Of a DNA stretch of 41,115 nt, positions 515-4,621 are shown piece after piece. The stretch is from Clostridia bacterium (GTDB lineage Bacteria > Bacillota > Clostridia > UBA1381). The position numbers and the translations under genes are program-made. The notes beneath the pieces are model-generated. The model was given only the letters and a program-made list of their open reading frames with translations, ran no database searches and was not told where the DNA came from. The stretch covers positions 1 to 41,115 of the forward strand of contig JAFUJN010000181.1 of the NCBI GenBank assembly GCA_017468095.1. Reading direction: 5' to 3'. Each line of letters starts with the position of its first letter. Positions within the stretch are counted from its first letter, which is position 1.

Positions 515-543
515 TTGACATTTTATGACTACGGATGTAGAAT
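515..543 (+). promoter_or_regulatory. sigma-A promoter of the blaI-M56 operon
   Basis: TTGACA (515-520), a 17-nt spacer, then TAGAAT (538-543): a near-consensus housekeeping promoter. The 3' part of the spacer and the -10 box are covered by the first putative BlaI operator, which implies repression by occlusion. An AAAGGAGG ribosome site follows at 572-579, 7 nt before the blaI ATG. Confidence 0.85.
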
Positions 544-569
544 ATAGGTGTGACTACGAGTGTAGAATA
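526..569 (+). promoter_or_regulatory. Two BlaI-type operators
   Basis: Two 19-bp direct copies, TGACTACGGATGTAGAATA (526-544) and TGACTACGAGTGTAGAATA (551-569), repeat with a 25-bp period and differ at two positions. Each contains the dyad CTAC-N4-GTAG, resembling the TACA/TGTA half-sites of BlaI/MecI operators. The first overlaps the -10 region and the second covers the expected transcription start and leader. Placement directly ahead of a blaI-family gene indicates autoregulation. Binding is inferred, not shown. Confidence 0.82.
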
Positions 570-966: not shown

Positions 967-3177
967 ATGCTTGAGTACATATTCAAGGCGGTACTTATTA
1001 CTTCTCTTATAGGCACTGTTTCTGCAGTTTTATTTGCCTTAATCAAGCCGTTAACAAAGAAATATTTTTCTGCAAGTTGGCATTATTACATTTGGCTAAT
1101 TGTTTTAGTAACTATGGTAACGCCTTTCAGGTTTATTATGCCGGAAAAGACCTTTGTTGCAGATATCCAAGAAGATGCAATCATTCAACAAGAGAACTAT
1201 GTAGAAAATAATCCGGTTCTTGAGTTTGTGAAAAATGAGGAAGTGTTTCCGCAAGTAGATAATGTTACGGAAGGTAAAATTGCTAATATAAAGGGTTTTG
1301 CCGAAGACAAAATCAGTATATTATCAATAATATGGCTTGGTGGAGCTATGGCATTTCTTGTTTTTAAAGTGATTGCTTACATTTTGTTTGTTTTAAAACT
1401 TCAAAGGGCATCACAAATAATCTCTTGTGAAGAACTTAAGCAATATACAAATAAGAAAATTATAACCAGAACAAGTAGCAAAATTGTTTCGCCGTTGATG
1501 GTGGGAACTTTACGGCCGACACTACTTTTGCCGGAAGCTGAAATGACAGAGGAACAGCTTGACAACGTGTTAGCTCACGAAATGGTGCATTTTAAGCGAA
1601 AAGACATTATTTATAAATGGTTTGTTTGCTTTGTGAAGTGCATCCATTGGTTTAACCCGATGGTTTACTATGTGGCAAAGCAGGTGGATATTGAATGCGA
1701 AATTTCCTGTGATTTGGCGGTTGTGAAAAACATGAATAAAGAGCAAGAGAGTAGTTATATAGACACAATTCTCGCTTTAGTTACTGCAAAAAAACAACAG
1801 AAAACAGCTGTAACTACAGCGATGGCAGGGGATAAAAAGTCGCTGAAAAGGAGGTTTTCAATGATTAAAAATAAGGGTAAAATAAGTAAAAAGGCAATTA
1901 TAATTTCTGTTATAATAGCATTTGTGGTCCTTGTTGGTTCCGTATTGGCAAGCGGAATATTAAACGGAAAGTTTATAAGCAATTATGAAAATGAGCTGCT
2001 TGCAGTAAACACAGATGCAAGGCAGAGTGATGATTTTAATTTCTTGTTTGTAGGTATTGATAAGCAAAATAACGCGGATTCATTGATGGTTTTATCTGCT
2101 GAAGACGGCAAACTGTCAGGGGTGTCATTCTTGAGAGAAACTGTATTTATTATTGATGGAATAAAAGCAAGCGCAAGTGAGATTGTAAATGGAGTTGACG
2201 GAAATCAAAGAATAATAGATGTGGTAAAAAACACACTATCTGTGCCAATCAATTATTATGCGAAGGTAAATTTGACTGTTATTGAAAAATTGGTGGATAG
2301 CGTTGGAGGAATAGAGATTGATGTGCCGATAGATATGGAGTATGATGACCCGGAACAGAATTTACATATTAAGATAAAGCAGGGCAGACATACTCTGAAC
2401 GGCTCTGCAGCGTGCGGACTTCTGCAGTTCAGACGTTCAAATAACGGCAACGGATACGGAGATGTTGTAAGAACCAAAATGGGTCAAGAGTTTGTAAAAG
2501 AATTTATAAATCAAAAACTCAACAAGGAATTTATCAATAAATCGCCTGAAATATTTAAAGAATTGGCAGAAAATATCGAGACTAATTACCCTGTGTCAAA
2601 GCTTCTCGGCGATATAAGAATGCTTAGCAATATGAAGTCTGACATAACATTTAAAGTATTTGATAGCGCATCAATAACTGATGATACTGGATTTATGCTA
2701 TACGAAGAGGAAAATGGCGAGGTGATTTCAGTAGTTGCCAAGCCAAAGCTTGTGCCAGATGCTCACAATGAAAGCAAAGTACAACCCGAAACAAAAGTAA
2801 AGCTTGCAAGGCCATGCGATGGTACAATAACCAATCATTTTGGAAAAAGAGTGCATCCTATTACAAATGAAGTTCGTGAACATAATGGTATCGATATAAA
2901 AGCACCTGAAGGAACAGAAGTGGTTTCGTCCATGATCGGAACAGTAACAGATGTTGGTTTTGATGCCGAAAAGGGTAATTATATCGTGGTGGAGAAGGAT
3001 AATGTTAAGACAATATACTCACAACTTTCTGCCACAAACGTGAAAAAGGGCGATAACATAAGTATAAACCAATCCATAGGTGCAGTAGGCAGTACGGGAA
3101 ATTCCACAGGCGCACACTTGCACTTTGAGGTTATGATTGATGGAGAATATGTTGATCCGGAAAGCTTAATGCCATAA
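967..3177 (+). CDS. M56 (BlaR1-type) protease - LCP - M23 peptidase fusion
   Basis: A 736-aa membrane protein with three enzyme modules. Residues 1-145 contain three hydrophobic segments. The M56 metalloprotease domain follows, with the zinc motif HEMVH (204-208) and downstream ECEISCD (243-249). A fourth membrane helix (about 310-329) precedes an LCP (LytR-CpsA-Psr) domain (~355-580) with GID, DSLMVLS, SFLRET and a C-terminal GYGDVVRT-type arginine motif. The C-terminus (~618-733) is an M23/LytM endopeptidase with intact H639xxxD643 and H717xH719. Expected topology puts M56 in the cytoplasm, to act on BlaI, and LCP plus M23 outside, in place of the penicillin-sensing domain of BlaR1. LCP enzymes attach polymers to peptidoglycan and M23 enzymes cut peptide stems. 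Domain calls are firm; the combined role is inference. Confidence 0.88.
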   Translation: MLEYIFKAVLITSLIGTVSAVLFALIKPLTKKYFSASWHYYIWLIVLVTMVTPFRFIMPEKTFVADIQEDAIIQQENYVENNPVLEFVKNEEVFPQVDNVTEGKIANIKGFAEDKISILSIIWLGGAMAFLVFKVIAYILFVLKLQRASQIISCEELKQYTNKKIITRTSSKIVSPLMVGTLRPTLLLPEAEMTEEQLDNVLAHEMVHFKRKDIIYKWFVCFVKCIHWFNPMVYYVAKQVDIECEISCDLAVVKNMNKEQESSYIDTILALVTAKKQQKTAVTTAMAGDKKSLKRRFSMIKNKGKISKKAIIISVIIAFVVLVGSVLASGILNGKFISNYENELLAVNTDARQSDDFNFLFVGIDKQNNADSLMVLSAEDGKLSGVSFLRETVFIIDGIKASASEIVNGVDGNQRIIDVVKNTLSVPINYYAKVNLTVIEKLVDSVGGIEIDVPIDMEYDDPEQNLHIKIKQGRHTLNGSAACGLLQFRRSNNGNGYGDVVRTKMGQEFVKEFINQKLNKEFINKSPEIFKELAENIETNYPVSKLLGDIRMLSNMKSDITFKVFDSASITDDTGFMLYEEENGEVISVVAKPKLVPDAHNESKVQPETKVKLARPCDGTITNHFGKRVHPITNEVREHNGIDIKAPEGTEVVSSMIGTVTDVGFDAEKGNYIVVEKDNVKTIYSQLSATNVKKGDNISINQSIGAVGSTGNSTGAHLHFEVMIDGEYVDPESLMP

Positions 3178-3180
3178 CCA

Positions 3181-3209
3181 AAAACCTTTGGCTTTTTGCC
3201 AAAGGTTTT
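3181..3209 (+). terminator. Terminator of the blaI-M56 operon
   Basis: Stem AAAACCTTTGGC/GCCAAAGGTTTT with a five-T loop, starting 3 nt after the stop codon. The 3' arm supplies the short T-run. It separates this operon from the downstream sigma-factor gene. Confidence 0.85.
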
Positions 3210-3308: not shown

Positions 3309-3845
3309 ATGGTAGATGAAAGAAAATTACTTTTTCAGCTTCAAAAACGAGCAAAAAATTCTATAGATGTGGCGATAGATATTTATACACCTTATCTGAG
3401 TACGGTTTTGTATAATATTGCAGGGAATAGCCTACCCAAAGAAGATATTGAAGAAATTGTATCAGATGTATTTATTGCCCTTTGGAATAATGCAGGAAAC
3501 ATAGACCTTGACAAAGGAACCTTGCGGTCATATATTGCAACTTGTGCCAGAAATTTTGCGCTGAAACGACTTAATAAAGTCAAAGAATTTGCAGAACTTG
3601 ACGATATAGAGTTGGCAGATAGCCGAGATTTTGCCGAGGATAGCATAAAAAGTGATTTTGTTTGGAAATCGGTTATGGAGCTTGGCGAACCGGACAATGA
3701 AATATTTGTCCGCTACTACAAGTTCGGTGAAAAAATAAAAGAAATTTCAAATGCAACGGGATTAAATGTGTCTACTATCAAGAGCAAGCTTTCAAGGGGT
3801 AAACGCAAATTAAGAATTTTGTTAAATGCGGAGGAATGGTTATGA
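3309..3845 (+). CDS. ECF-type RNA polymerase sigma factor
   Basis: 178 aa, typical of group-4 (ECF) sigma factors. The region-2-like part (~20-90) includes the stretch IEEIVSDVFIALWNN, which matches the -10-recognition helix. The region-4-like part (~125-172) has the helix-turn-helix EISNATGLNVSTIKSKLSRGKRKL, which reads -35 elements. The stop codon overlaps the start of the next gene (ATGA), the usual coupling of an ECF sigma with its anti-sigma. It follows the blaI/M56 operon after a terminator, so it has its own promoter. The regulon is not deducible here, but the neighbourhood suggests envelope stress. Confidence 0.88.
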   Translation: MVDERKLLFQLQKRAKNSIDVAIDIYTPYLSTVLYNIAGNSLPKEDIEEIVSDVFIALWNNAGNIDLDKGTLRSYIATCARNFALKRLNKVKEFAELDDIELADSRDFAEDSIKSDFVWKSVMELGEPDNEIFVRYYKFGEKIKEISNATGLNVSTIKSKLSRGKRKLRILLNAEEWL

Positions 3846-4621
3846 AAAAAAGAGATTTGTTTTTGGAACTCAATATTAAAGATGTAAAGGAAAGGGATAA
3901 CGCTCCTTTTGATATTGACATTCAAAAAGTAAAGAACAAAGTAAATAACAGTATCTGCTCCGCAAAACGGGAAAGGACGGTTAGTTTTATGAAATCAAAA
4001 AAGAAAGTGGCTTTAATTGCAGCAGCAACAGTTTGTGTATTGGGAATTACAGCTTTTGCGGCAAGTGGGATTATTACAAGCTGGAACAGTAGTTCATCAG
4101 GTATTCCCGAATATAAAAGCCTTCCGTCGGCGGAGCAATGTATAGAAGATATAGGTTATGTGCCGGTGCTTATTGACACCTTTGAGAATGGCTATAAATT
4201 TAACAACGGTAGCCTTGTGAATAACAATCTTAAAGATGAAAATGGCAATTCTGTTGAAAAGTTCAAGTCTGTTATGTTCAGATATGAAAAAGATGGCGAC
4301 AGAGTAATATTTTCTCAGGACAAATTCGACTCAGCGATTGAAAGAGATGGAGAAATTGTCGCTACAGTTGACAACGTAGACATCTATTATAGCAGCTACA
4401 CAAACAAGCTTGTTCCGCCGGATTATGAGCTTACAGAAGAGGACAAAAAGGCAGAGGCAAACGGAGAACTTGTATTCAGCTATGGTACTCCAGAAGTGGA
4501 AATCATAAAAGTGCAGAGTGCCAACTGGGTTAAAGACGGCGTTTTGTATAACTTAATGCAGATGGACGGAAAGCTATCTCAAGAAGAATTGATCCAAATG
4601 GCAACAGAAATCATAGAATAA
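3842..4621 (+). CDS. Putative membrane-anchored anti-sigma factor
   Basis: I chose the ATG at 3842 (259 aa) over the one at 3836, because the ribosome site CGGAGG (3829-3834) is 7 nt from the former and only 1 nt from the latter; this gives the ATGA overlap with the sigma stop. About 50 charged N-terminal residues would face the cytoplasm and bind the sigma factor. One transmembrane helix follows (VALIAAATVCVLGITAFAA, around residues 57-75). The ~180-residue extracytoplasmic part begins SAEQCIEDIGYVPVLIDTF and resembles the DUF4367-like sensor domains of clostridial anti-sigmas; I cannot confirm the family by eye. The role rests mainly on gene order and topology. Confidence 0.75.
   Translation: MKKRDLFLELNIKDVKERDNAPFDIDIQKVKNKVNNSICSAKRERTVSFMKSKKKVALIAAATVCVLGITAFAASGIITSWNSSSSGIPEYKSLPSAEQCIEDIGYVPVLIDTFENGYKFNNGSLVNNNLKDENGNSVEKFKSVMFRYEKDGDRVIFSQDKFDSAIERDGEIVATVDNVDIYYSSYTNKLVPPDYELTEEDKKAEANGELVFSYGTPEVEIIKVQSANWVKDGVLYNLMQMDGKLSQEELIQMATEIIE

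Follow-up and report, generated by a model that had tools for sequence, protein, structure and literature searches.

BlaR1 and MecR1, the receptors that work with the repressors BlaI and MecI, are familiar as beta-lactam switches. In BlaR1 the gluzincin motifs of the M56 protease are H201ExxH and E242xxxD (PMC9834060). Two other protein families bear on the locus described here: the LCP glycopolymer transferases (TagT/U/V and A. oris LcpA), for which work on LcpA found Arg149 and Arg266 to be essential and Arg128 dispensable (PMC6381275), and the M23 peptidases, of which LytM depends on two catalytic histidines, His260 and His291. Replacing one or the other by alanine kills activity in LytM, lysostaphin, LasA and Ale-1 (PMC4594094), and pseudoalterin has the same dependence on both catalytic histidines (PMC6962226). 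Combinations of M56 with M23 are mentioned, as rare, in a review of M23 (PMC9662197). M56-LCP proteins are nowhere described in the literature that our search could reach (most subscription papers lay outside it), and no named family with the order M56-LCP-M23 was found, just as the earlier note on this DNA had supposed.

The window (the whole stretch of DNA that was analysed, 41,115 nucleotides from a gut-type Clostridia bacterium) belongs to a draft genome, G000 (1.25 Mb, 183 contigs, 91% complete), and encodes the sole M56-LCP protein of that genome. The earlier note had proposed that one intact frame joins an M56 protease to both an LCP and an M23 domain, and this is indeed the case: the Pfam search was positive for all three, all far over the gathering scores, no frameshift was found in 967-3177, and GC3 and codon usage are uniform over M56, LCP, linker and M23 (Table 1). 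Our preferred reading, to which we assign a probability of about 0.5, is that of a BlaR1-type envelope receptor in which wall-polymer-binding modules replace the beta-lactam sensor and which forms a self-amplifying closed circuit with BlaI.

Table 1. Features of the receptor operon and of the related split operons (positions are those of the window unless a locus is named)
Feature	Position	Strand	Basis
Sigma-70-type promoter TTGACA-17-TAGAAT, blaI-receptor operon (predicted)	515..543	+	11/12, best match in region
BlaI operator copy 1, GACTACGGATGTAGAATA (candidate)	527..544	+	contains -10; paired site conserved in homologs
BlaI operator copy 2, GACTACGAGTGTAGAATA (candidate)	552..569	+	paired site conserved in homologs
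blaI-type repressor, 125 aa	587..964	+	Pfam Penicillinase_R 7.8e-31; MecI alignment
M56-LCP-M23 fusion receptor gene	967..3177	+	single uninterrupted ORF, 736 aa
M56 (BlaR1-type) membrane protease domain, residues 9-300	991..1866	+	Pfam Peptidase_M56 3.9e-57
M56 motif HEMVH, residues 204-208	1576-1590	+	aligns with BlaR1 H201ExxH
M56 motif E245xxxD249	1699-1713	+	aligns with BlaR1 E242xxxD
Adaptor: autocleavage-site loop and fourth membrane helix, residues 282-334	1810..1968	+	BlaR1 alignment
LCP domain, residues 370-516	2074..2514	+	Pfam LytR_cpsA_psr 1.6e-23; PDB TagV 2.5e-16
M23 domain, residues 638-731	2878..3159	+	Pfam Peptidase_M23 2.6e-26
Intrinsic terminator closing the two-gene operon (predicted)	3181..3209	+	12-bp stem, then T-rich tail
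Split BlaR1-like operons (blaI, truncated M56, satellites)	L085:4911-9242, L086:5311-9681, L087:6480-10595, L112:5987-10500		

The likeness to BlaR1/MecR1 and BlaI/MecI extends over the M56 motifs (the zinc motif is intact, as had been claimed), the four-helix layout, the aligned autocleavage-site loop and the presence of blaI in the operon, with a predicted operator over the -10. In an AF2 model built from 21 sequences most of M56 has a pLDDT of 80-97 (except the 55-110 loop), and Foldseek matched the model to the BlaR1 structures 8ext, 8exs and 8exp. The adaptor loop of the window protein reads TTAMAGDKKSLKRRF (TTxMxxxKxxLxxRF in relatives), and its Met286 aligns with Phe284, the P1' residue of the BlaR1 autocleavage site before TM4. 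The repressor gene lies directly upstream, with 2 nt between its stop and the receptor ORF, and the S101-L102 pair of its product stands in the MecI alignment where BlaI and MecI have the cleavage bond N101-F102. Besides these two departures (Met for Phe at P1', S-L for N-F at the BlaI bond), the differences are that no penicillin-binding (transpeptidase/beta-lactamase-like) domain is present, the LCP and M23 domains of this BlaI-partnered M56 receptor being located where BlaR1 has its penicillin sensor (again as the earlier note had it), that the protein scores 138 bits against the BlaR1_generic profile, whose cut-off is 400, and that, unlike BlaR1, it apparently has no target genes beyond itself.

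The M23 domain has the fold and zinc ligands of M23 peptidases (LytM, lysostaphin, ShyA) and of degenerate LytM proteins (EnvC, NlpD, SpoIIQ); it is well modelled by AF2 (21 sequences), and Foldseek returned the M23 domains of DipM, EnpA, EnvC and LytM. The zinc ligands H639, D643 and H719 are retained, as is H717, within the motifs HNGID and HLH, so that the claim of complete HxxxD and HxH motifs stands for the residues it named but not for the second catalytic histidine: Gln686 (3022-3024) occupies the position of LytM His260, with His717 at that of His291 and the 31-residue spacing unchanged. The domain thus differs from M23 peptidases both in this residue and in being tethered to an M56 receptor. 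One catalytic histidine is missing in 7/8 M56- or adaptor-linked M23s versus 0/8 other M23s, a comparison whose rows are phylogenetically non-independent; at the His260 position the M23s encoded by satellite genes of split operons (see below) have Ser and L015 has Ala, and L112 and L114 keep this histidine and have lost the His291 equivalent. A rule that all M56-linked M23s are degenerate was rejected, since the M56-M23 protein of L169 (Subdoligranulum) keeps both histidines; the existence of such a protein with all its catalytic residues counts against the sensor model. This gene (L169:3737-5122) is unannotated in its record, which is labelled as a Subdoligranulum variabile plasmid. L015, L112, L114 and L169 all have M56 and M23 in one chain, like the window protein, with CAO_N1 or a linker between them where the window protein has LCP. 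In L015 (Lachnospiraceae; L015:3278-10010) there are three consecutive M56 genes, one of which is the M56-M23 fusion. In the tree the window M23 joins those from M56-CAO_N1-M23 proteins and from the satellites of split operons (92/89); its identity to the satellite M23s is about 60%. It is probably zinc-loaded and catalytically crippled and, because one catalytic histidine has become Gln, would in principle stand nearer to the degenerate LytM regulators.

The LCP domain shares its family and pocket Asp/Arg residues with the glycopolymer transferases: D365, D371, R390, R489 and R502 are retained and are invariant in a six-sequence alignment, and by motif position the protein has the equivalent of A. 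oris Arg149 (R390) and is without that of Arg128. It differs from them in being joined to M56 via TM4, in having LRE in place of PRD (with loss of the Asp), in the absence of KIN and in belonging to a separate, long-stemmed clade. KIN is missing from all of the receptor-type LCPs (8/8), whereas the free LCPs compared retain both KIN and PRD; in the LCP domain tree the LCP of the window, those of the six other M56-LCP proteins and that of one satellite form a single clade (100/100, stem 1.25) apart from the free LCPs. The AF2 model (21 sequences) is poor in this part (pLDDT about 30-60), which was set aside. From these residues, binding appears more likely than turnover for the window LCP. Since both LCP and M23 fall in receptor-specific clades, the two modules would have been drawn from a pool specific to receptors, as opposed to some random housekeeping enzyme.

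The earlier note had the ectodomain attach wall polymers and cut peptidoglycan, and suggested that it might “sense or edit” peptidoglycan. With one of the two catalytic histidines gone from M23 and with KIN and the PRD Asp gone from LCP, attachment and cutting are weakened, even though the pocket and the zinc ligands remain, and sensing is therefore better supported than editing; LCP and M23 are more likely to be binding or sensing modules than enzymes, while these substitutions as such do not prove inactivity. The alternative that survives best, though we consider it unlikely, is an inducible effector enzyme, in which M56/BlaI sets the dosage of an active LCP (glycopolymer ligase) and an active M23 (endopeptidase) that remodel the wall. 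The closed regulon described below would make the ectodomain the only induced product, the three zinc ligands and H717 are intact, the five pocket residues do not vary, the Arg149/Arg266-type arginines are the essential ones in A. oris and Arg128 is dispensable (PMC6381275), and the fusion carries the only LCP domain found in the G000 draft. These points are set against a Gln at the very position where Ala abolishes LytM activity (PMC4594094), the loss from LCP of elements that the compared free LCPs have kept, and the fact that in receptor contexts both clades, M23 and LCP alike, have lost catalytic residues.

The candidate operator consists of two GACTACnnnTGTAGAATA copies, the pair overlapping the -10; the paired site CTACnnnnGTAGAAT is conserved in front of almost every homologous blaI gene, where the promoter layout of the window's operon also recurs. 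Exact matches in 11 genomes fell at blaI-M56 promoters in 28/30 cases (a count that includes palindromic double hits), and the remaining two, single sites in G386 and G284, were rejected as extra BlaI targets because they lie inside unrelated ORFs. Within G000 both exact sites (2/2) are at the receptor's own promoter, no beta-lactamase or PBP gene in this draft was found under the operator, and the three extra sites with one mismatch are no excess over the reversed-pattern control. The self-amplification proposed earlier is supported by this map, in which clear predicted operator sites occur at the receptor's own promoter only; BlaI and the receptor apparently form a closed autoregulatory loop. 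BlaI may also have degenerate targets, as the search was for near-exact matches in a draft genome and degenerate sites are indistinguishable from chance. An ordinary switch of the BlaR1 kind, responsive to beta-lactams or wall stress and with further BlaI targets that this search overlooked, would be in keeping with the classical role of BlaI/M56 pairs in governing resistance genes (PMC9834060) and with the near-exact search of a draft, but we regard it as quite improbable given the absent penicillin-binding domain, the lack of a resistance gene adjoining the receptor operon, one-mismatch hits no more numerous than in the control, and an operator exclusivity that is also seen in the 10 other genomes.

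Just past the terminator lie an ECF sigma factor gene and then one for a likely membrane anti-sigma protein without a Pfam match (3309-4621). The sigma factor (3309) was considered as a part of the system and rejected: the terminator intervenes, the operator is absent and the gene is in a different place in G013. A phage origin was likewise rejected, relatives being absent from the viral contigs searched, as was a plasmid origin, the best plasmid match being only a distant M56-M23.

M56-LCP receptors were found in 6/95 genomes of the order (the window's and G013, G049, G056, G052 and G046), the five other proteins being 38-55% identical to that of the window over about residues 3-580; a further one (G284) turned up among 391 genomes sampled from the class. 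The gene was not found in the eight other species of the window's genus. These eight congeners have two free LCP genes apiece. All of the M56-LCP relatives have blaI immediately upstream; what follows LCP is either nothing (G013) or other unannotated domains. Several M56-LCP and M56-CAO_N1-M23 receptors (L082:5472-7808, L083:6678-9029, L084:7926-10745, L111:1535-3808, L114:3984-6545) end in a conserved domain of some 110 aa that carries no annotation (YxGFxxLxLxNAD ... YSFLGF ... WxIEGxYIIY). No second intact M56-LCP-M23 protein was found in the order, class and phylum samples and two further orders (about 1,000 genomes). A loss of the M23 motifs in close homologs, which the earlier note had named as a sign against its proposal, was found in part, in that the closest homolog (G013) ends after LCP and is without M23. 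Two other M56-LCP proteins (L082 and L084) have, in the segment that separates LCP from their C-terminal domain, the stretch KRVHP(V/I)(T/S)xE. The M23 motif, GxRVHPITGE...HNGVD, opens in this way, and among ORFs totalling 402,000 aa no protein other than these two has RVHP outside an M23 domain. We read the stretch as a relic of M23 deletion, and the LCP-M23 order would therefore predate this one genome. It is very unlikely that the true protein is M56-LCP and that its M23 end arose by chimeric assembly or by a recent fusion without function: a singleton in a metagenome-type draft whose nearest homolog stops after LCP could suggest it, but the domain is in frame and the linker before it normal, GC3 and codon usage are uniform, its place in the receptor-linked clade and its identity to the satellite M23s are those given above, and the relic is present in two other proteins.

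The split operons offer a different arrangement of the same parts. Their M56 cores are truncated (276-302 aa, ending at MKTIL(D/A)L) and are followed by satellite genes that start with the loop and TM4, two or three behind one core in L085, L086, L087 and L112. The satellite ectodomains differ (LCP, CAO_N1, M23 or unknown), one L112 satellite being an LCP that is 43% identical to window residues 283-580, and each operon has its own blaI paralog and an operator different from the window's. Frameshift errors were rejected as an explanation, since the four loci share the stop position and a clear ribosome-binding site precedes most satellite genes. The loop motif is kept in the relatives and at the N-terminus of the satellite proteins; a 55-aa satellite N-terminus used as query had matches in 31/95 genomes of the order (mostly the N-termini of short ORFs, a few the internal loop of fused receptors) and matched window residues 282-328 at 2.4e-6. 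To judge from sequence, the loop and TM4 together act as a module in cis or in trans. We tentatively, and with slightly less than even confidence, propose a modular BlaR1-type class in which the loop-TM4 is a universal adaptor and one M56 core either is fused to pseudo-enzyme ectodomains (LCP, M23, CAO_N1) or has several of them acting on it in trans, in closed autoregulatory loops, with the window protein as a fused three-domain member. The exchangeable adaptor and the split receptors are the newest part of this proposal.

In the receptor model that we prefer, BlaI bound to the paired operator over the -10 would repress its own two-gene operon, as the predicted operator, promoter and terminator suggest. 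By homology to BlaR1 and from the model, the receptor would sit in the membrane with its M56 site facing the cytoplasm and LCP-M23 on the outer side, where the LCP Arg/Asp pocket may bind polyprenyl-pyrophosphate-linked wall precursors and M23 may bind peptidoglycan stem peptides. Occupancy could then be relayed via TM4 and the autocleavage loop (the exchangeable adaptor) to activate M56, which would cleave BlaI and so give more receptor, in line with the operator map and with the example of BlaR1 (PMC9834060). Self-only regulation without catalysis would give no output, and some piece is therefore missing from the self-amplifying model. As no other operator target was seen, the most likely output is either the ectodomain of the receptor itself or M56 cleavage of a substrate other than BlaI; the ectodomain might serve either as a low-activity enzyme with residual catalysis or as a wall-bound scaffold, a role comparable to that of EnvC and NlpD, which are amidase activators of degenerate M23 type (PMC9662197).

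If this reading is true, BlaR1/MecR1 would represent a single branch of a broader receptor architecture, with the sensor swapped for wall-polymer modules, and it would become possible to test what the majority of M56/BlaI pairs that lack a penicillin sensor respond to, a question of long standing. The presence of LCP and M23 points to specific candidate ligands, namely lipid-linked wall precursors and peptidoglycan peptides, and the split operons suggest that BlaR1-type activation may be deliverable in trans through the autocleavage loop, which is itself a testable point.
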